Part shown: positions 6,687 to 25,934 of the stretch, piece after piece
How the letters are laid out: each line of letters opens with the position of its first letter
Position numbering within the stretch: position 1 is the first letter of the stretch
NCBI GenBank assembly: GCA_023512255.1
Contig: JAILZY010000035.1
Location: 1-32,756, forward strand
DNA from: a bacterium
GTDB taxonomy: Bacteria > SZUA-182 > DTGQ01
Length of the DNA stretch: 32,756 nt
Direction: 5' to 3'
Notes under the pieces: model-generated
What the model was told of the DNA's origin: nothing
Seen by the model: the letters and a program-made list of their open reading frames with translations, nothing else
Database searches by the model: none
Program-made: the position numbers and the translations under genes

Positions 6687-7733
6687 CTACTGATGTCGGG
6701 TGATAATCTCCTCAACGAGCTGGACCGTTGCCTGAAGATCGTCTAGCGAGACAACCTCAACTGTGGAGTGAGTATAGCGGCAAGGAATGCAGATAGCAAG
6801 CGCTGCTATTCCATCTGCGGCTAGTTGTACTGCTGCCGCATCAGTTGATCCTCCGACTACACCCATCTGCAAGGGGATATCCCTTTCGGAGGCGATTTGT
6901 TCAATAAACTTTCGCAATCCTTGATGGGTAACCATGCGGCTGTCGACCAGCCTCAATAGAGGACCTTTGCCTATCTGAAACTGGTCTCGATAAATTTCAG
7001 GCACACTGGGAAAATCAGGAGCGCTGGCAGTGTCAATGATAAAGGCTCGATCAGGTCTGGTCCGGCAGCCAGCTACGGTTGCTCCCCGCAGGCCGTATTC
7101 TTCCTGCGTGCTAAAAATCCAGCTAATTCGAGGGCCAGGCTGGATTTTCTTCATTTCTTGGATCACCTTAATTATGACCGCGCAGCCGGCCCGATTATCC
7201 ATCCCTCGCGAAGACACAAGATTATTGGCCAGCCTAAAGGTCTGCTTGGCAAAACCGATCGGATCACCGACCCTTACTCCCATCGCCCTGACCTCCTCCG
7301 CACTACGGGCTCCGATATCAATAAGCAGATTTTGCCAGGGGACCACCTTATCCAACTCTTTTTGCCCCTCGATAGCCATATGCGGTGGAACCCAGGCTAT
7401 AATCCCTGGAATTTCAGCGCCCTGTGAGCTAAAAAGCCTTACCTGTCTCGAGGGAAGAACGCGGTCGTCGATCCCGCCCATTTTTTTGAACCGTATGAAC
7501 CCATCGCTGGTGATATTGGCTACGACTAGACCAAGCTCATCCATATGGGCAAAAAAAGCGATATGGCATTTCCCCTCACCCTCCCGGATGCCGATGAGAT
7601 TACCCAGGGCATCGACTTCTATCCGATCGAGACAGTCTTTGGTCAATTCCCTGATCCGTTCCCTGACCGGCTCTTCATATCCGCTTACGCCGGGCACCAT
7701 GAGTAATTCTTCAAGCAGCTTGCTAAGTTCCAT
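6687..7733 (-). CDS. M42-family metallo-aminopeptidase
   Basis: The 348-residue protein belongs to the M42 aminopeptidase/endoglucanase family (FrvX/YsdC-like), cytoplasmic enzymes with two metal ions that usually assemble as large tetrahedral shells and trim peptides. All expected metal and catalytic residues are present: His in FAHMDE, bridging Asp in RGMDNRAG, the Glu pair in STQEEYGLRG, Asp in IIDTASAP and His in RYTHSTVE. Length is normal for the family. AAGGAG lies about 11 bases before the start. It is transcribed divergently from the ABC exporter. Substrate preference cannot be told from sequence; an acyl-peptidase or glucanase label sometimes attached to this family would be less likely. 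Confidence 0.93.
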   Translation of the reverse strand: MELSKLLEELLMVPGVSGYEEPVRERIRELTKDCLDRIEVDALGNLIGIREGEGKCHIAFFAHMDELGLVVANITSDGFIRFKKMGGIDDRVLPSRQVRLFSSQGAEIPGIIAWVPPHMAIEGQKELDKVVPWQNLLIDIGARSAEEVRAMGVRVGDPIGFAKQTFRLANNLVSSRGMDNRAGCAVIIKVIQEMKKIQPGPRISWIFSTQEEYGLRGATVAGCRTRPDRAFIIDTASAPDFPSVPEIYRDQFQIGKGPLLRLVDSRMVTHQGLRKFIEQIASERDIPLQMGVVGGSTDAAAVQLAADGIAALAICIPCRYTHSTVEVVSLDDLQATVQLVEEIITRHQ

Positions 7734-8053
7734 AAGTATATGATCTCCTTAATTTTATTCTTTTAGTCTGAATATTCTTTTATTCTAAACACTTATTACC
7801 TTATTTCCAAACCTTATTCCGAAATTCTATCCAAGCGGATAATTTTGCCCATACATACCCGCGCAGTTTTTTTGGGATAAAAACTGCTCTGGAAGAAGTG
7901 CACTGCACAATAATATTGACCATAAGTGATATTTTACTATAAAGTAGTATACATTTGATAGCCGATAAAGATCGAGTTGATATTTTATCCACTTAAATAG
8001 TTATTATCTCCCTATTGTGTGGGCGGATAGATGATCCGAAAGGGAAAAGTCGC
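7734..8053. other. Divergent spacer with a perfect hairpin
   Basis: This spacer separates the aminopeptidase and the ABC exporter. GCAGTTTTT (7863-7871) pairs with AAAAACTGC (7879-7887) around a seven-base loop. It could be an operator or an RNA structure for either gene. A 63-codon minus-strand frame here (7801-7992) has no ribosome-binding site or family resemblance and is not called. Confidence 0.4.
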
Positions 8054-8974
8054 GTGGAGTATGTCATTGAGGCTGAGAATCTGAGAAAGGTTTTCAATAA
8101 CTTTGTAGCTGTTGATGGGATTTCTTTTCAGGTCTACCCTGGGGAGTGCTTTGGTATACTCGGTCCGAATGGGGCTGGCAAGACCTCAACAATTCGCATG
8201 ATCTATGGATTTTCTCCGATAACTAGCGGCAAGCTGAGGGTTTTCGGCCTTGATATAACCCAAAAATGGCGTAAGATCAGGGCTAGAGTTGGGGTCTGTC
8301 AGCAGGATAACAACCTTGATGCGGATCTGAATGTGCGGGAAAATCTTGAAATCTTTGCCCAATATTTCAATATTTCTAGAAAACAGGCCAGGGGCAAAGC
8401 TCAAAGTCTGCTTAAATTTATCGCTCTTGAGCATCGACAAGATGATGAGGTGATCAATCTTTCAGGTGGAATGAAGCGCAGACTGGTCTTGGCCAGGGCT
8501 TTGATCAATGACCCGGACCTTCTGATTCTCGATGAGCCTACCACTGGCCTTGATCCTCAATCCCGTCATCAGGTATGGGATCGGCTGAGAGAGCTCAGAT
8601 CAAAAAAGGGGCTTTCTATTCTGCTGACTACTCATTATATGGAGGAAGCCTCCCAGCTTTGCGACCGGCTGATAATCATGGATCATGGCCGCATCTTGGT
8701 AGAGGGGAAACCTGCCGATCTTATTCGCCATCACGTAGGCCATGTGGTTATTGAAGTTGATGATCCAAGCCCCAAATTGCGAATCTTTGTCCAGAACCAT
8801 AACCTAAAACATGAAGACCTGGGCCATCGCCTGATAATCTACGGCCAAAACCAAGATAGCGGCAGGCTGTTTCAGGAGATAGATGATCAATTTGTCAACG
8901 AGAACTGCATCTTACGTATGGCTACCCTGGAGGATGTTTTTCTGAAGTTGACCGGAAGAGAGTTGAGAGAATGA
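8054..8974 (+). CDS. ABC exporter ATPase subunit (NodI/DrrA-like)
   Basis: This cytoplasmic ATPase powers an ABC-2 type exporter together with the permease that overlaps it by four bases (ATGA). It shows Walker A (GPNGAGKTSTIRM), the Q-loop (CQQDNNLD), the signature LSGGMKRRLVLARALI, Walker B (LLILDEPTTGLDP) and the switch His (LTTHYMEEA). A C-terminal extension of about 80 residues follows, as in NodI and drug-exporter ATPases. I chose GTG 8054 because AAAGGG lies about ten bases upstream and the family begins near VIEAENLRKVF. The frame stays open back to a TTG at 8015. The exported compound is unknown; NodI/NodJ homologues outside rhizobia are not nodulation genes. Confidence 0.9.
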   Translation: MEYVIEAENLRKVFNNFVAVDGISFQVYPGECFGILGPNGAGKTSTIRMIYGFSPITSGKLRVFGLDITQKWRKIRARVGVCQQDNNLDADLNVRENLEIFAQYFNISRKQARGKAQSLLKFIALEHRQDDEVINLSGGMKRRLVLARALINDPDLLILDEPTTGLDPQSRHQVWDRLRELRSKKGLSILLTTHYMEEASQLCDRLIIMDHGRILVEGKPADLIRHHVGHVVIEVDDPSPKLRIFVQNHNLKHEDLGHRLIIYGQNQDSGRLFQEIDDQFVNENCILRMATLEDVFLKLTGRELRE

Positions 8975-9801
8975 AAGCGAGAGTCTCGGTAGGGCATGAA
9001 TTAATGCGTAGAAAAAACGCGGTTTTTTTTACTATCTCAAGACGCTTTATCCGGGTGTGGCAGCGAAACTGGAGCGTTTACCGCAAAACCTGGAAAGTCA
9101 GCTTTCTGCCACCACTTTTCGAACCCTTGTTTTACCTCCTAGCCTTTGGGATTGGATTGAGCTCCTTCGTCGGAGAGCTTTCCTATCGAGGCTTTCAGGT
9201 TTCCTATATAAGCTTTATTGCTCCGGCCCTGATAGCCGTCAATATCATGTATAATGCCTTCTTTGAGAATACCTATACCTCATTTGTCAGAATGTATTAT
9301 CAAAAAAACTTTGATGCCATGCTGGCTACTCCCCTGTCTCTGGAGGAGATTATCACTGGAGAAATCATGTGGGGGGCAACCAAATCGGTCATCGCCACTG
9401 CGATCATGCAGTCAGTGATCAGTCTGCTCGGTTTTATTCACTATCCGCAAGGTGTTTTAATTCTGCCACTTTCATTTTTAGGTGGCTTTGCTTTCGGATC
9501 ATTCGGCATGTTTATTACCAGCATCATGCCGAATATTGAAATATTCAATATCCCCGTATTTTTATTCATAACTCCCATGTTTCTCTTTAGCGAGACATTC
9601 TTTCCAATAAATCATCTACCAGACTGGGTTCAGAAGCTATCTCTCCTCTTCCCCCTGACCCACCTAGTGAGGATTACCCGATCTTTGAGCTTTGGGCTGC
9701 TAGATTCCGGCCTGCTTTGGAATCTTGCCTACCTTCTGATTTTCTCCCTTATTTTCTTTCCTCTGGCCTTGCTGAAAATGCATAGCAGGCTTATCAAGTA
9801 A
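8971..9801 (+). CDS. ABC-2 type permease (NodJ-like)
   Basis: The 276-residue membrane subunit pairs with the upstream ATPase; the two overlap by ATGA, so they are translationally coupled. About six hydrophobic segments can be seen, starting with PPLFEPLFYLLAFGIGL and ending with LLIFSLIFFPLALL. The conserved ABC-2 stretches LATPLSLEEIITGEI and FPLTHLVRI match the NodJ/lipid-export branch. The substrate could be a lipid-linked sugar or a small hydrophobic compound; nothing here decides. The last bases of the gene are part of a short duplication that continues past the stop codon. Confidence 0.9.
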   Translation: MKARVSVGHELMRRKNAVFFTISRRFIRVWQRNWSVYRKTWKVSFLPPLFEPLFYLLAFGIGLSSFVGELSYRGFQVSYISFIAPALIAVNIMYNAFFENTYTSFVRMYYQKNFDAMLATPLSLEEIITGEIMWGATKSVIATAIMQSVISLLGFIHYPQGVLILPLSFLGGFAFGSFGMFITSIMPNIEIFNIPVFLFITPMFLFSETFFPINHLPDWVQKLSLLFPLTHLVRITRSLSFGLLDSGLLWNLAYLLIFSLIFFPLALLKMHSRLIK

Positions 9802-9828
9802 ATCGTCGCAAGGCTTATTAAGTGAATC
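9787..9828. repeat. Direct repeat spanning a stop codon
   Basis: An 18-base unit beginning AGGCTTATCAAGT (9787-9804, containing the permease stop codon) recurs with two changes at 9811-9828. Confidence 0.75.
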
Positions 9829-10367
9829 AAAGATTATTTCCAGGACTACTTCCAGATCATTTTTTTGGCCTGGCCGCGCTTTTACCAGATTATCTGTCTG
9901 GGTTATCCGATCGGGTTATCCATTCAGGGGGCGAGTTAACAGGTATCTAACAGGCATTGGCCCACCTGGCCCTAGCAATGATTCTGGCTGGTCTAAGTGT
10001 GTAAGCCTATCTCCTTGAAATATCTCCTGCCGTGAGTGTTACTTGAGCTTAGAGTTTCTCTGAAAATTCGAAGAAAAATTTGACATTATTGATTATTTAA
10101 CGGTAAATTTTATATAAATATTTATATCATGGATATTTATATAAATACTATAATTTTATAATTTTATAAATTAATACTTCTAGTTATTTAATTTATTTTT
10201 ACAGAATATATTTTTAGAGGAGGGGATGTTCGTTTTCGGATTAAAGACATTCCGATCCAGAAATAGTTTTGTTCCCTCAAGAAGAGAGAGCACTTTTTCG
10301 AGAAATGTATTGTTAATAATGTAATTGTTAATAGAGTTGTTCTACGCGGTCAGAAGGAGAATCAAGA
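9829..10367. other. AT-rich spacer upstream of the beta-helix gene
   Basis: No gene is supported here. The stretch contains short duplications (GGGTTATCC at 9900-9908 and 9913-9921; ATTGTTAATA at 10309-10318 and 10324-10333) and a very AT-rich block around 10090-10220. TTGACA at 10080-10085 with TAAATT 18 bases on is a weak promoter candidate. AAGGAG before ATG 10368 serves the next gene. Confidence 0.4.
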
Positions 10368-13300
10368 ATGCAAGAAGCATTTGAAACAAAAGCAACTCTA
10401 CTGAATTATCTATGCTCATTGGTAATCTTATCATCATTTTTGGCTCTGTTTCTCTTAGCCGCTGATGCCTCCTGGGCCACAGTAGGTGACATAGCTATAT
10501 ATTGGCCAGGGGTAGGGGGAATGCTGACCCCAAAGGAGCAGGAAGAGTGTGCCAATTATATTTATACCCATGTGGATCTTGTCCAGTCAGCCACAAAGAC
10601 GCTATTTTGTGGCTTTGGGCAAGATATGGTCAAATCTTTCAAAACCTGGCTTGATGCGCACCTGAAAGACGGTCAGGCGGACCTTGTGATCATAATTGAT
10701 ATTTGTCCTAATCTGGTATATGACGGCGAGGTGGATCGGTCGATGGCCGAGCAGTGGATGGAGAGCGGCAATATGCTGATTTGGACCGGCTCTGAGCCTT
10801 TTGGCAGCTATATCGACACTGAGGGTATTTGCCACAGCGAGGGGGCTGGGCAGATGGGGGCAAGCCGGGTGCTGGATGTCTCATCGGCTGGGCTTTGTCG
10901 GGGCGTGGGGAGGCAGGAGGCGACTACAGCAGTGCGGGATTGGGATGATCCTGATGGAGACTATGATATTGGCTCTTTTGTTGAGTATGAGGCTCAACAT
11001 GCCTTGCGCTACGATCAGCTTTTGATTGATACTCTTTCTTCTAACTGGCACCGGGCGCCTTTTTGGCGGCCTGAGGAGATCTTTGCCGAAGACAGTGAGC
11101 GGTATCAGTCTGACTGCTTGGTGTTGGTGAATGAGAAAGGTGGCCGCTATGGGCAATTTTACTGTCTGGCTGGCTTTAATCAGGCTAGGATGAGGGTAAT
11201 CAGCGAAGTAATCAACCACTGGCTCAGCCTGCCCTGCCGCACCCTGGTGGTGCCGAGCCGCCAGTATCCAACCATTCAGTCGGCCATTAATGCGGCCCAA
11301 AGCCGAGATACGGTTGTGGTCATGCCGGGCACATACCGCGAGCAGCTTGTTTTGAAGCGGGGCGTCAAGCTGGTGAGCGACTGGCGAGGTGGGGGCAACA
11401 ATCTTGTGCCTGGACCTGGCCAGGCCGATAAGCTGTATGGGGTAGAGTCAAAAAAGGTGCTGGCCAGGGCAAGCCGGACGATCATTGACGGTACGGGATT
11501 TTCCGGTGGGGTTGAGGCTCGGCCCATGATTGATTTTCCCCCTGGGGCTACAGTAGCTACCCTGGTCGATGGCTTTACCATAACTCATATGCCCAGGGTG
11601 GATCATACCCTGCCTGGCCATGCCCATACTGTGCAGATGCGGGGTGCTTCGGGTACGGTAATAAACTGCATTATCTGCGACAATGGCAGCAGCGGCCTTG
11701 GCTGCCATGCCCTAATGAAGGGCGAGGAGAGCAGCCCCATGGATCATCGGCAGATTGATTTTCGCTACTCTAACATCAAGTATGACTCCCATCCGATTGT
11801 GATCAATAATGTTGTCTGCCGCAACGAGGGTAACAACCTGGGCAATAATCACTATGCCTATGCTATTTTTTATAATAATGAGTGCTTTGAGTCCCTGTCG
11901 GTCGATGGTCATGATGCCCCAGGCATTGGCAATCAGCACGGAGCCCATGCTTTGATTGTTGGCAATCTAGTCTACCAAAGTGCCTGGGTTGGGATTGGAG
12001 CTCGGCAAGGCGAAGAGCAGGGTCGCTATCCGGTTAATCGGCCTACTCATCCGACGGTTCGGAAAAATCGGGTCTATGATTCGGGACAAAACTACACCTG
12101 CCAGGATGACAAGGAGTGCGGAGCAGGGATTGGGGCAGATGACACCGGCGGCTTTGATCCTAAGTTAGGCAGGCTAGTCTATCATCTGATTGAAGACAAC
12201 TATGTCAGTGGATCAGCCAATGCCGGCATCGGCTGCCGCTCAACTAACCCGACCACAGGTTATGTCAGGATTGTCGGCAATGAGGTTACCCAATCTGGTC
12301 GATTGGGTTGGGGAGCTGGCATTGGGATTAGAGGAGCAACCCATGTGGCTGCCATCAGCCGCAATGTAACTTATGGAAACCGTGGCCCTGGCATTGGTCT
12401 TCGAGAGGGGGCCGCCTGTGAGCTGATCAGCAACAATGAATCGTTCGAAAATGAAGCGGCTGGTATTGGGCTTCGGGAGGGAGCGAAAGTGGTTGAAATT
12501 AGCCATAATGACCTCCATGACAACAGGGCCGCGGGCTGCGGGCATGATGGCTCTCAAGAGGGCGGCAGGGTCTGGGTCGGGCTCGAATACGGAAACCGAA
12601 TCCGCCAAAACAGTGGGGCAGGCCTTGGCATTGTCTGCTCGGATGTGCTGGAAATTCGAGACAATCTAATTGAGCACAATGACCAGCCGGGCATTACCCT
12701 CATGGGAGGCTCCACTGTCGGGCTGATCGTCGCCAACACCCTTGACTACAACGGCGCATCCTGCAAAGCTAGCCTTTCGGCTCATGAGGGCTCATCAGCC
12801 ACAATCAAAGACACTATCATTAGCCACAGCGGTGCGGTCGGCATCAGTGCTTTAGGTCCTGAAACCTCCCTGCTGCTTGAGGGCTGCAAGATCACCGACA
12901 GCGGCCAGTGCAGCTATGGGCCAAACCTGACTGCTCAGGCAGGAGCCAAGGTCCAGCTTGTGGGCTGTCGCCTTGAGCGCACCCTCGGCTCTCCTAACAT
13001 CATGGTGAGTGGCAGCGCTACTACCCTTAGCCTGGTCGAGTGCACGGTCCGAGATAGCGCCAAGCCGGGTCTTGTGGCCAGTAGCGATGCCAAAATCAAC
13101 ATCCGTGATACAACCTTTGACCGCAACGGCACGGATGGCACCCGTGGCCTCATGATCGATGACTGTGAGATAGTTCTCGAAAGGGTTACTGTCTGCAACA
13201 GTCCTCATCATGCTCTGGCAGCTACAAACTGCACGGGCAGGATCGAGGGATGTGAATTTTACCGCAATGGCTTGGTCGGAGGCGGCCAGATAACTATCAG

Positions 13301-15191: not shown

Positions 15192-18100
15192 ATGAGAAGT
15201 TATTGTAGGTTAAAGAGAATATTCATACTTTTGAGTGTGGTTGCGGTATTTGCTCTGGCGGGGGCTGCCACAGGAGATGCTTTTGCCCAGGGTACGGCCA
15301 AGAGTGCCTGGCCATGCCGGGGATACCATTCGGGGCGCACTGGTCAAAGCCCTTATGTCGGAGCACAGAGTAGCACCCTGAAATGGAAATACCAGATCGC
15401 AGATAAGATATACTCCTCGCCAGCTATCGGAGTAGACGGCACAATCTATATCGCTGGCCTGGACAGTAAGCTTTATGCCCTTAGGCCGGATGGAAGCCTG
15501 ATCTGGAAATACCAGGCTACTGATAAGATATACTCCTCGCCAGCTATCGGAGTAGACGGCACAATCTATGTGGGAAGCTATGATGGCAAGGTCCATGCCA
15601 TAAATCCAGATGGCAGTCAGAAATGGGTTAGCCAGACTGGGTATCAAACCGAGTCCTCGCCGGCCATAGGAGCAGATGGCACGGTGTATATTGGCAATCA
15701 TGATGGAAAGATTTATGCTCTCAGAGCTAATGATGGCCAGCTTATGTGGGCCAGCCAAACAGCGCCGCTCTATATGTATTCCTCACCAGCTATTGGGCCG
15801 GATAGTACAGTCTATGTGGCCGCCTATGATGGCAGGCTTTACGCCTTTAGCCCCGATGGAACTATATGTCAGGATTATCAAATCAGCGAAAACGGCTCCC
15901 TCTCTCCTCTCGTTGGGCTAGCTATAGGAGCTGATCATACCATTTATGTTGCAAGTGATGACGGTGCAGTATATGCCCTCTGGCTGAATGGCAATAATTG
16001 CATTCTGAAATGGAAATTCCGAGCCAGCACTCAGTTTCATTCCTCACCAGCGATAGGAAACAATGGTCTTGTCTATATCGGCAGTCATAATGGTCAGATT
16101 TATGCCATAAAGCCAGATGGCAAGCTAAAGTGGAGCTATCCGACTGGAGGTGCTATCTATTCCTCACCAGCCATTGGTGCCGATGGCACAATCTACATTG
16201 GAAGTACCGATGGCCGAATTTATGCTTTGCGACCTGATGGAAGTCTAGTCTGGAGCTACCGTACCAGAGCTCAGATTTATTCCTCACCAGCTATCGGTGA
16301 GGACGGCACCCTTTATATTGGAAGTTATGATTACCGGCTCTACGCCTTTAGTGCGATAGTCTGCCAGGATAACGGTGACTGTAGCGCCGGGGGAGGATTC
16401 TGTCAGCATGGAGTCGGAAATTGCACTGGGCAGGGAGTTTGCTCAAATCTTCCCAAGAGCTGTCCAGATGTATTTGATCCAGTCTGTGGATGCGATGGCC
16501 TAACCTACGATAACTGGTGCCAGGCGGCTGCCCATTCGGTAAGTGTGGCCTATCAGGGAGTATGTGGAGTAGTGCAGGAGCAGGGTGAAGAGGTGTGCGA
16601 TGGGAAGGATAATGATTTAGATGGTCTTGTGGATGAGGACCTGAAAAGAGCCTGCTCAACCGCCTGTGGGAGCGGCATAGAGATTTGCCAAGCCGGGCAG
16701 TGGGTTGGCTGCACTGCGCCCCAGCCTCAAACCGAAGTCTGCGATGGGCTAGACAATGACTGCGATGGTCTTGTGGATGAGGACCTGACAAGAGCCTGCT
16801 CAACCGCTTATGGGAGCGGCACAGAGATTTGCCAAGGCGGGCAGTGGGTTGGCTGCACTGCGCCCCAGCCTCAAGGTGAAGAGGTGTGCGATGGGAAGGA
16901 TAATGATTTAGATGGCCTTGTGGATGAGGACCTGACAAGAGCCTGCTCAACCGCCTGTGGGAGCGGCATAGAGATTTGCCAAGCCGGGCAGTGGGTTGGC
17001 TGCACCGCGCCCCAGCCTCAAGATGAGGTGTGTGATGGGCTAGATAACGACTGCGATGGTCTTGTGGATGAGGACCTGACAAGAGCCTGCTCAACCGCTT
17101 GTGGGAGCGGCACTGAGATTTGCCAAGCCGGGCAGTGGGTTGGCTGCACTGCGCCCCAGCCTCAAACCGAAGTCTGCGATGGGCTAGATAATGACTGCGA
17201 TGGTCTTGTGGATGAGGACCTGACAAGACCATGCTCAACCGCTTGTGGGAGCGGCACTGAGATTTGCCAAGCCGGGCAGTGGGTTAGCTGCACTGCGCCC
17301 CAGCCTCAAGATGAGGTGTGTGATGGGCTAGATAATGACTGCGATGGTCTTGTGGATGAGGAAGTAATGAATACTTACTATGCAGATAAAGATAGCGATG
17401 GCTATGGCAATCCTTCCGTAAGTATTCAGGCTTGCTCTCCTCCGAGTGGTTTTATGAGCGACAGTAGCGATTGTAACGATGAAGACTGGAATATTCATCC
17501 CGGGACCCCGGAAATTCCGTGTAACGGCCAGGATGAAGATTGTCTTGGAGGGGACAGCACGCTTGTTTGTAGCTCGTATGGACAGGTGGAAGATGAGTCA
17601 GGACAACTGGATATCCAAGGGACCACAGCTAAGGCGAGTCAGGACAAGATTATGGTTCCCGTGAGGATTCAGTCGGCACCGAATGAAATTCACGTCTTTG
17701 GATTTGAGGTCATCTATGATCCGCGGGTTTTGACCTATTCAGAAAATTTCGAGCCGGGGGAGCTGGCAAGCGCTTTCTCTATCTTTGAGGTCAAGCCTCT
17801 TTGTCCCGGCAGAATCTGGATAAATGGAGCTTCTCCTGAGGGAGAGGGAATTGTCAAGGGAGCAAGCGGCTATCTGGTCTGGTTGGAATTCAAGACTGCG
17901 AACGGCCAGGAAAATCAAGGCCATTTCTTGCAACTAGAAAATCTTGATGCCGATCTAATTGATTTTTCTACAACTGGCGGTATATTGACTGTTTTGCCTC
18001 GATGCAATGGAGATATAGATGGTGATGGGAAAATTGGCATTCAAGATGTTAGTATAGTTTTTAATTGCTACCTTAAGGCTGGACCATGTCCTGAGTGCGC

Positions 18101-18194
18101 CGATGTCAATCAGGATGGGAGTATAACCATGGCCGATGTCTTATGCCTGTCAGCGAAATCTACAGGCCAGCCCTCATGTCTTGATAGGCGATAG
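15192..18194 (+). CDS. Secreted mosaic protein: beta-propeller, Kazal, MopE-type repeats, cohesin and dockerin
   Basis: The 1000-residue protein has a signal peptide (hydrophobic residues about 9-28, ending GDAFA). Residues about 45-390 hold eight PQQ-like blades, each with a YSSPAIG-type core and GTIYIGS strand, making an eight-bladed propeller. Residues about 395-460 are cysteine-rich with a Kazal-like signature (CPDVFDPVCGCDGLTYDNWC). Then come six EVCDGLDNDCDGLVDE acidic motifs, interleaved with five CSTACGSGTEICQ modules, and a related DSDGYGNP/DCNDED calcium-type segment. A cohesin-like domain follows (about 805-930, VPVRIQ...FGFEVIYDPRVLTY). A dockerin ends the protein (CNGDIDGDGKIGIQDVSIVF and ADVNQDGSITMADVLCL). 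Cohesin and dockerin in one chain suggests self-association or assembly with other surface proteins. AAGGAAGGG precedes the start. Confidence 0.9.
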   Translation: MRSYCRLKRIFILLSVVAVFALAGAATGDAFAQGTAKSAWPCRGYHSGRTGQSPYVGAQSSTLKWKYQIADKIYSSPAIGVDGTIYIAGLDSKLYALRPDGSLIWKYQATDKIYSSPAIGVDGTIYVGSYDGKVHAINPDGSQKWVSQTGYQTESSPAIGADGTVYIGNHDGKIYALRANDGQLMWASQTAPLYMYSSPAIGPDSTVYVAAYDGRLYAFSPDGTICQDYQISENGSLSPLVGLAIGADHTIYVASDDGAVYALWLNGNNCILKWKFRASTQFHSSPAIGNNGLVYIGSHNGQIYAIKPDGKLKWSYPTGGAIYSSPAIGADGTIYIGSTDGRIYALRPDGSLVWSYRTRAQIYSSPAIGEDGTLYIGSYDYRLYAFSAIVCQDNGDCSAGGGFCQHGVGNCTGQGVCSNLPKSCPDVFDPVCGCDGLTYDNWCQAAAHSVSVAYQGVCGVVQEQGEEVCDGKDNDLDGLVDEDLKRACSTACGSGIEICQAGQWVGCTAPQPQTEVCDGLDNDCDGLVDEDLTRACSTAYGSGTEICQGGQWVGCTAPQPQGEEVCDGKDNDLDGLVDEDLTRACSTACGSGIEICQAGQWVGCTAPQPQDEVCDGLDNDCDGLVDEDLTRACSTACGSGTEICQAGQWVGCTAPQPQTEVCDGLDNDCDGLVDEDLTRPCSTACGSGTEICQAGQWVSCTAPQPQDEVCDGLDNDCDGLVDEEVMNTYYADKDSDGYGNPSVSIQACSPPSGFMSDSSDCNDEDWNIHPGTPEIPCNGQDEDCLGGDSTLVCSSYGQVEDESGQLDIQGTTAKASQDKIMVPVRIQSAPNEIHVFGFEVIYDPRVLTYSENFEPGELASAFSIFEVKPLCPGRIWINGASPEGEGIVKGASGYLVWLEFKTANGQENQGHFLQLENLDADLIDFSTTGGILTVLPRCNGDIDGDGKIGIQDVSIVFNCYLKAGPCPECADVNQDGSITMADVLCLSAKSTGQPSCLDRR
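16587..17357 (+). repeat. 144-base tandem coding repeats
   Basis: Units begin near 16587, 16731, 16875, 17022, 17166 and 17310, a period of 144 bases (one interval is 147). Each encodes a 48-residue module: an acidic Cys/Asp motif and a CSTACGSG module. Long identical nucleotide stretches show recent duplication or gene conversion. Units alternate in their opening sequence (GAAGAGGTG, ACCGAAGTC, GATGAGGTG), hinting at duplication of multi-unit blocks. Confidence 0.9.
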
Positions 18195-23580: not shown

Positions 23581-25092
23581 TTATTGAAATCCTCCCTGAT
23601 ACCGGACATTATTAATGAATAGGGTGGGTGAGGCATGGATATTCATAGTCTGAGCCTTGGCCAGATTTTCCCTGAAAAGCTGTAAACTACTTTTGGAGGC
23701 GATCAGCTCTTCTAGTTTCTTTAAGTCAACTCCTGCCTTCTTGGCGCATTCCCTCCAGTCAGTGGTTTTAATGTTCTCGTTTCGAAGTCTTAGATAAGAA
23801 AAAAGTTTTTCTGGAAAATACTTTTGGATCAAAACTTGCCTAAGATCCTCTTCCACCTCCGGCAGGCCGTGAAGACTGGCGAACGAATCGGCTAATTTAT
23901 CTGAGCCCTCTGTTTTTGATTGAGCGATAAAGTAGATCTGAAGGTCAATTTTAGACCCTAATTCAGCCATAATATTATCAAGGGCCTTCTCTGCCCGCAG
24001 GGCAAAGGGACAGTAGCTCATAGCAAAGAGATCAAGCTTAGCCTTCTTACCATCTTTCAGTGCATTTTGAATCGCCTCTCGAAGAGATGGCCGCGGAGGC
24101 TGTGGACTGTTGCTGGTTGAGGCTGCTACTGCTGCCGGTCCATAAATTTGACGTACGGCTTCGGTGATCTTCTCATCAGGAAAATTTTGCGTAACCAGCA
24201 CCTGAATCAGAGCCTTCATGGGCAAGCATTGGCTGCTATTGCACCCAGCCAGATTATGAACAACATTGCCAGCCACAAAGTTATAGAGGGGGAAAAGCTT
24301 TCTAGCCCGATCACTGTAAGTAATCTGGGGTAGAAAAGTCTGGGCTGAACCCTGCTGGTGGCTGCCCATTGAGTTTTGATTTTCAGACAGAACTCGGCCA
24401 GTCACATAGAGAGTTACCTGCGGAGTGTGAGGATTGTCGGTACTGATAATCACTTGCCCCCAGGTTCTTTCTTTCATGCTGGCTGCATCCACGCTTACCT
24501 TGAAAGTTGCCTTCTCGTTTTGTTTTAGGGAAAGGGGCAGTTTTAGGCCAGCAAGATCAATGCTGACAAAATCATAAGGAGAGGTAATAGAGTTTATTTT
24601 CAAAAGATTATTACTTAAGTTGACTACCTCTACGGTCTCGGTCTTTTTCTCTCCGGGTAAGAGCTCTCTGAAATTTACAGTAGTGGGGTTGACATCAACT
24701 TCTACCTTGACCATAGCCATGAGTTCTAGTTTAAATACCGGCGTGTTAGGATCATTTGAATTCACATAGATTGTTTTCGTCTGTTTTCCACGGTAAGATT
24801 TTGAGTGAAAAGTAGCTTTGATTTCTCCGGTTTTTCCTGGGGCGATATCTCTCTCCGAGAGATTGACAGCAGTACACCCTCAGCCACCCTTGACACTCTC
24901 AATTTTCAGGGTCTCCGTACCTGTATTTTTAAACTTGAAGATATGGCTTTTTTCCTGATTCTGATACATCTCTCCGAGATCGTACTTGGTTTCCATAAAC
25001 TCAATTCTGGGTTTGGCCGATGTTAGACCAGGGAGCAGGCAAAGACCAACAAGAGTAAGAAAAAAGCAAAAAAATTTAGATCGTTTTGTCAT
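23581..25092 (-). CDS. Exported DUF1573-thioredoxin fusion, selenoprotein candidate (TGA read as Sec)
   Basis: Read through one TGA (24882-24880), this is a 503-residue protein. It has a signal peptide (FFCFFLTLVGLCLLPGLTSA) and a DUF1573 domain (RIEFMETKYDLGEMYQNQ, then IESVKGG-U-GCTAVNL and IAPGKTGEIKATF). A second Ig-like domain follows (about 115-215), then a region with GCNSSQC. A C-terminal thioredoxin-fold domain has one active-site Cys (LDLFAMSYCPFALRAEKA) and the cis-Pro loop ASPTLFINN. DUF1573 proteins have a conserved CGCT motif, and the TGA replaces its first cysteine, giving UGCT. The frame is intact on both sides. ATG 25092 is preceded by GGTGAT, complementary to 16S rRNA. It probably acts in periplasmic thiol-disulfide chemistry. 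Alternative: a pseudogene with one nonsense codon. Standard gene calling would report two fragments, 25101-24880 and 24765-23581. Confidence 0.82.
24847..24863 (-). promoter_or_regulatory. Bacterial SECIS-like hairpin for the DUF1573 fusion gene
   Basis: After the TGA on the minus strand, ATCTCTC (+17 to +23) pairs perfectly with GAGAGAT (+27 to +33) around the loop GGA. The loop begins 24 bases after the TGA and its first two bases are G. This fits the known spacing and loop rule for bacterial SECIS elements. Confidence 0.72.
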
Positions 25093-25252: not shown

Positions 25253-25306
25253 CTTGAGCTAGCCCAGATGACTAGTTTTCTTGAGTTAGCCTAGATGACT
25301 AATTTT
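25253..25306. repeat. 27-base tandem duplication
   Basis: A 27-base unit beginning CTTGAGCTAGCCCAG occurs at 25253-25279 and 25280-25306 with three mismatches. The second copy runs into the last codons of the DciA-like gene. Confidence 0.9.
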
Positions 25307-25934
25307 TTTCGAGAAAATGCTGATCATGAAGACAGTGTTTGATAAGGATACCCCTTAGAGTCTGCTTTAGCCTATCGTTATTTTTGATTGGGCCAAGCAG
25401 TCTGTCAATTTCTGCCTCCCGCTCAGCGGTAATCTTCGCGGGCTGCTGCTCCGCCTCTACCTTTGATGAAGATGAGAGATTAGGTAAGGGTTTGGGGAAA
25501 ACCCTCTTTAGACGCAACTCAAGGCTGATCGGCTGACTTGCGTTTAGAAACTCATTCACCTTCTTGCTTAACAGGGCTTCAATCTGCTGCAGGGCGACCA
25601 TCCACTTTGGTTCATCAACAGCCACGATAAGTTTGTGGTTTTGAAGGGCAAGCGGCGCAGTGTGCTCTGACAGCTTAGGGCCAACGATTTTTATCCAGTT
25701 TTTTCTTAATGCCTGCCTCTGAATCTGGCTCTCGATAGCTTCCGTTATTCTCTTGTTTTGCAGATAAGGCAGTTTACTTAAGATGCTGGAGATAGCAGGC
25801 GGAAACTCGGAAGGATAATCAGGATCTGCAGGCTCAGGAGGAAGAGCATGATTGCTACCCTGCTGAGAGCCAGCGAGCAGACTTTTTGTGGCTTGATGAG
25901 AGAGATCATGTTTTTTTGGGCTGTCGTGGTTCAT
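25299..25934 (-). CDS. dciA: DUF721/DciA-like protein
   Basis: The 211-residue protein has a central DUF721 domain (about residues 60-135), including LRKNWIKIVGPKLSEHTAPL, KLIVAVDEPKWMVALQQ and LSKKVNEFL. DciA-type proteins help load or operate the replicative helicase DnaB in bacteria lacking DnaC/DnaI. The disordered N-terminal ~45 residues (rich in Ser, Gln, Pro) and the C-terminal ~60 residues are not part of the core. It is not next to gyrase or secA genes as is often seen. The last codons overlap a recent tandem duplication, so the C-terminus may be lineage-specific. The start lacks an obvious ribosome-binding site. Confidence 0.8.
   Translation of the reverse strand: MNHDSPKKHDLSHQATKSLLAGSQQGSNHALPPEPADPDYPSEFPPAISSILSKLPYLQNKRITEAIESQIQRQALRKNWIKIVGPKLSEHTAPLALQNHKLIVAVDEPKWMVALQQIEALLSKKVNEFLNASQPISLELRLKRVFPKPLPNLSSSSKVEAEQQPAKITAEREAEIDRLLGPIKNNDRLKQTLRGILIKHCLHDQHFLEKN

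Follow-up and report, generated by a model that had tools for sequence, protein, structure and literature searches.

The locus and its in-frame TGA

The window, the whole stretch of 32,756 nucleotides analysed here, carries on its minus strand a complete gene (23581..25092) that very probably encodes a selenoprotein of 503 amino acids followed by a TAA stop. Translated with TGA as a residue, the frame from 25092 to 23581 comprises 504 codons including the stop, and its sole internal TGA is codon 71 (24882-24880), in the context SVKGG-U-GCTAVNLSERDIAPG. A first-pass annotation had described a single TGA within an otherwise intact frame of this length, lying on the first cysteine of a CGCT motif, and this was reproduced base for base. 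The codon (24880..24882, minus strand) supplies the first position of U-G-C-T and falls in the column that is invariantly Cys among Cys-form homologues, and its partner Cys73 (24874..24876, minus strand) occupies an invariant column of the U/C-G-C motif in alignment A1. Translation table 11 alone yields just a 394-aa fragment that begins at an internal GTG at 24765. The gene is a clear example of standard gene calling dropping a protein's N-terminal part; in this case the predicted signal peptide and active site are lost along with it.

A DciA-like gene (25299..25934, minus strand) lies just upstream on the same strand, and the same neighbor was found immediately upstream in all four family genomes examined (the window's own genome, G000, and G001, G002 and G003). 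Elsewhere in the window, 15192-18194 on the plus strand encodes a beta-propeller protein of 1000 aa, in which five metal-binding stretches of the MopE type, a Kazal domain and a match to dockerin were identified.

Domain anatomy of the encoded protein

The protein begins with a predicted signal peptide (residues 1-26; 25015..25092, minus strand), judged by eye to end between GLTSA and KPRIEF, and the hydrophobic N-terminus is kept in relatives; export of the protein can be inferred from this feature. An Ig-like DUF1573 domain (PF07610) follows at residues 30-119 (24736..25005, minus strand), as seen both in an AF2 model and in a Pfam match of 107.2 bits against a gathering score of 26.1, and the NCBIfam model NF041425 matches at residues 33-129. 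The PDB matches of this Ig part are to Ig domains of the ASH/HYDIN type. Domain searches and the AF2 model place a second Ig-like domain, of the HYDIN/choice-of-anchor D type, at residues ~131-236 (24385..24702, minus strand), and a linker connects it to a helical segment at residues ~255-325 (24118..24330, minus strand). The helices of this segment are predicted with low confidence, and it contains a conserved pair, Cys284-x4-Cys289, that reads CNSSQC, CNTGQC, CDFGRC or CKLGRC among relatives. A CcmH-like identity for the segment was considered and dropped, as no Pfam match appeared at E values up to 10 and a PDB profile search returned ribosomal proteins only.

The C-terminal part (residues 349-503; 23584..24048, minus strand) is a thioredoxin-fold domain of the GILT/DsbA-like kind. 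Pfam scores exceed the gathering thresholds for both DsbA-like families (PF01323, 32.7 against 25.6; PF13743, 36.1 against 27), and the AF2 model of the domain (pLDDT about 90) retrieves GILT (6nwx) and DsbA (3bci) in Foldseek. PDB sequence searches with the domain gave weak, mixed matches only, and the fold was assigned by the structure search. The domain contains Cys361 within SYCPFA, a cis-Pro-type loop (SPT, residues 488-490) and Cys449. In place of the CxxC active site of classical DsbA and GILT, all three fusions carry C-P-F-A/G, so the domain is not a textbook DsbA. In the AF2 model of the full-length protein, the domains are not positioned relative to each other (pTM 0.41). The full fusion was found in G000, G001 and G002 only, which belong to one small family; the relative in G003 retains the Sec domain together with the C-x4-C segment, and that copy ends before the thioredoxin domain.

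A candidate SECIS hairpin within the coding sequence

Downstream of the UGA lies a hairpin, AUCUCUC-GGA-GAGAGAU (24847..24863, minus strand), that would serve as the SECIS element. It spans positions +17 to +33 after the UGA, and its seven base pairs, GGA loop, start at +17 and loop at +24 agree with the earlier description. The loop also presents a conserved G within its first two positions at a distance of 16-37 nt from the UGA, as is required of bacterial SECIS hairpins. By itself, such a hairpin is about a 1% event: equally good ones follow 13 of the 1346 TGAs in the window (about 1%), occur at 0.7% of all positions, and arise in 186 of 20,000 synonymous recodings that leave the peptide unchanged. 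RNA z-scores of the folded regions were unremarkable (-0.5 to -1.4) and, not being significant alone, were dropped as proof of a SECIS; an Rfam search of the window gave no match.

On comparison of the relatives' sequences, it is conservation that raises the hairpin above chance. Its bases are unchanged in G001, G002 and G003, and are thus the same in four species of one family, with proteins 79, 60 and 50% identical overall to the window protein. Codons 77-82 (NLSERD) are invariant among these four species, in which a single codon is kept at 21 of 134 other conserved columns and at 0 of 20 columns for Leu, Ser or Arg. In G004 (L026), with a protein 33% identical, one stem pair has become U-G and the loop GGC. 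The distant Sec forms of G009, G066 and G085 have different hairpins after the UGA; these lie nearer the UGA in G009 and G066, and a simple scan of G085 gave stems whose loops do not begin with G. Among the Cys homologues, no hairpin of comparable strength with a loop-start G was found at that position, L041 being the nearest and marginal.

Distribution of the TGA and selection downstream of it

Nine DUF1573 genes, distributed over eight genomes, have a TGA at one shared motif position, where the remaining homologues compared have Cys. Besides the window's genome, the TGA genomes are the independent assemblies G001, G002, G003, G004, G009, G066 and G085, a count that leaves out a weak TGA match of 82 residues in G047. 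Alignment of Cys homologues across the TGA, proposed with the original reading, places Cys at the Sec column. Scattered additional stops or frameshifts in close relatives, which had been named as evidence that would speak against Sec, were not what emerged: the relatives have the same single TGA and no others, including the full-length L023 (79%) and L024 (60%). At one locus in G085 (L036, on C12), two adjacent DUF1573 genes each have a separate UGA at the CGCT position. In another homologue, L034 (G007:C87), a Cys-form DUF1573 was matched through an in-frame TAG and may represent a truncated gene or a frameshift.

Across the nine genomes compared in the phylum, the Sec form occurs in two families and the Cys form in three. 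The selB gene was present in 8 of 8 TGA-form genomes, compared with 12 of the 29 others that were tested (Fisher p = 0.004). Those 29 comprise four Cys-only genomes from the same small phylum, none of which has selB, and 25 further genomes with some match, of which 12 have it; the genomes compared are not entirely independent of one another, and some among the 25 match solely via the thioredoxin part. Between G000 and G001, dN was 0.02 and dS 1.3 just after the TGA, and 0.15 and 0.91, respectively, at the C-terminus, values indicating that the downstream protein evolves under purifying selection.

These comparisons bear directly on whether the TGA might be a true stop, whether in a pseudogene or through a nonsense mutation or a sequencing or assembly error in a Cys gene. 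The assembly does consist of 172 contigs, and the frame splits in two without Sec; but the same TGA recurs in seven independent assemblies with no further stops before the gene end, selection downstream appears purifying and the hairpin codons are frozen, which together make a true stop highly improbable. On conservation, in fact, this reading can be considered already refuted. It is similarly improbable that the locus yields a short DUF1573 peptide plus a second, separately initiated protein from GTG 24765. The 394-aa frame does begin there, but this GTG falls inside the DUF1573 domain, past the invariant GC motif, such that initiation at it would break the fold, and the residues from the TGA to the GTG codon are kept in relatives.

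Selenocysteine machinery and decoding

The genome carries selA and selB adjacent to each other on contig C114, the tRNA-Sec gene selC (61.1 bits, cut-off 47; anticodon TCA by ARAGORN) together with a second selB on C90, and selD on C107 (L060; G000:C107:16722-17648). With selA, two selB genes, selC and selD, it is equipped for the use of Sec; the search for these four genes had been proposed as a check, with a lack of selB or tRNA-Sec counting against Sec, and all of them are present. The selD gene itself encodes Sec, with a TGA at the active-site position (SAG-U-ASKLG) followed by a 6-bp stem whose loop, CGGGU, has a G at its second position.

Two SelB proteins per genome are seen in the genus (L001 on C114 and L002 on C90 in G000; on C31 and C2 in G001), with a mutual identity of 38-39% within the pairs; the two selB genes of G000 neighbor selA in one case and selC in the other. 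A literature search on paired SelBs reading different SECIS elements found nothing. The second selB belongs to a selenium cluster (L021, G000:C90:8000-27000; 7181-12984) ordered selC, selB2, a Cys-form DUF1573 gene, yedF (TIGR03527) and a gene of the cysteine desulfurase family. The DUF1573 gene begins about 39 bp past selB, and the order selC-selB2-DUF1573 recurs in G001 (L056).

An internal TGA within an otherwise open frame could also reflect genome-wide reassignment of the codon (to Trp or Gly, for instance) or reading by a suppressor tRNA. But TGA terminates polX, directly before ligA, and several further genes of the window, and is therefore a normal stop here; the homologues have Cys at the site rather than Trp or Gly; the genome has both tRNA-Sec and SelB; and SelD uses the same device. 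This reading has next to no probability. In a scan of frames of at least 200 aa, no further annotated gene of the window was interrupted by an in-frame TGA.

Sec decoding is thus strongly supported, about as well as sequence evidence permits. The presence of the Sec machinery, the occurrence of TGA and Cys in the same column and the conserved hairpin uphold the original proposal of Sec decoding at the TGA, and the gene is, with high probability, a Sec-coded fusion of DUF1573 to a thioredoxin-fold domain. In the proposed mechanism, SelB with GTP and Sec-tRNASec would bind the hairpin 17-33 bases past the UGA, and Sec would be inserted at residue 71 of a presumably exported 503-residue protein.

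Relation to known protein families

DUF1573 is a widespread domain for which, to our knowledge, neither a function nor an enzymatic activity is known. A DUF1573 selenoprotein with the motif UGC is listed in PMC9312934, where Zhang & Gladyshev 2007 is given as the source, and again in PMC13188914; in PMC2398784, pfam07610 appears as OS_HP2 with the motif UxC. NCBIfam has a model for this family, NF041425, 'OS_HP2 family (seleno)protein', and all nine DUF1573 proteins of alignment A1 match it. The window protein (P0001) shares with the family a Sec that stands first in the U-G-C of the DUF1573 domain, in keeping with Sec or Cys at this motif in OS_HP2, and it covers positions 2-98 of the 98-position model. 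Its score of 85.8 bits lies below the curated cut-off of 100, so it is a divergent OS_HP2 relative and not a certified member; the distant Sec relatives L027 and L030 score above the cut-off, at 104.8 and 102.3 bits.

The window protein differs from the published lists in its C-terminal C-x4-C segment and thioredoxin fold. A fusion of DUF1573 to a thioredoxin fold was not found in PMC9312934, PMC13188914 or PMC2398784, or by text search of the open-access literature. In the first-pass annotation, neither the UGC-motif selenoprotein nor the fusion was known to have been described; the former has been listed since 2007, while for the latter the remark stands within the open-access literature. 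On the sequence evidence, the product is a genuine selenoprotein that is divergently related to a known family and has a domain architecture for which no report was found.

Two further comparisons help to place the protein. With GILT/DsbA-like oxidoreductases, it shares the fold, Pfam DSBA and Thioredoxin_5 scores over the cut-offs and a cis-Pro-type loop, but it has a single active-site Cys (CPFA) and its domain sits behind DUF1573. The Cys-form DUF1573 paralogue of the same genome (L010, on C90) is 43% identical, with a matching N-terminal domain order and the motif SCGCT; it differs in having Cys for Sec, in lacking both a SECIS-like hairpin and a thioredoxin domain, and in its location within the selC-selB-yedF cluster.

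Proposed function

The most likely role for the protein is that of an exported selenenylsulfide/disulfide oxidoreductase. Sec71 and Cys73, in a loop between two strands of the Ig domain, could form a redox centre that cycles via a selenenylsulfide. This centre may in turn exchange disulfides with Cys361 of the C-terminal GILT/DsbA-like domain through a putative contact, with the Cys284-x4-Cys289 pair perhaps acting as intermediary between the two. For a presumably exported Ig-like domain that bears a U-G-C centre and is joined to a one-Cys thioredoxin fold and an extra Cys pair, the simplest reading is a thiol/selenol exchange relay, to which we would give a little less than an even chance. 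On that reading, it would work in the envelope as a self-contained thiol oxidoreductase or peroxidase-like enzyme, and it is possible, though somewhat less likely than not, that the Sec-Gly-Cys centre of DUF1573 is recycled by the protein's own GILT/DsbA-like domain.

Another way that the DUF1573 Sec could function is by binding a metal or selenium in a structural or delivery role, in which case the protein would still be a selenoprotein. Selenium handling is the main alternative for DUF1573 because the Cys paralogue sits in the selenium cluster with selC, selB and yedF, and a domain without known enzymatic function could also fit such a role. However, Sec is found mostly at redox sites, and the fusion to a thioredoxin fold, along with the conserved Cys pairs, points to thiol exchange, making a binding role rather unlikely.

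Since 2007, the Sec form of DUF1573 has been hardly more than one line in selenoproteome tables. The thioredoxin-fold fusion, together with the Cys paralogue in the selenium cluster, provides a concrete lead to the chemistry of DUF1573, and the fusion protein offers a test object for the role of the UGC motif. The thioredoxin-like fusion hints at disulfide chemistry by the DUF1573 family outside the cytoplasm, and if the fusion is indeed self-recycling, the whole family would gain a role in thiol/selenol redox.
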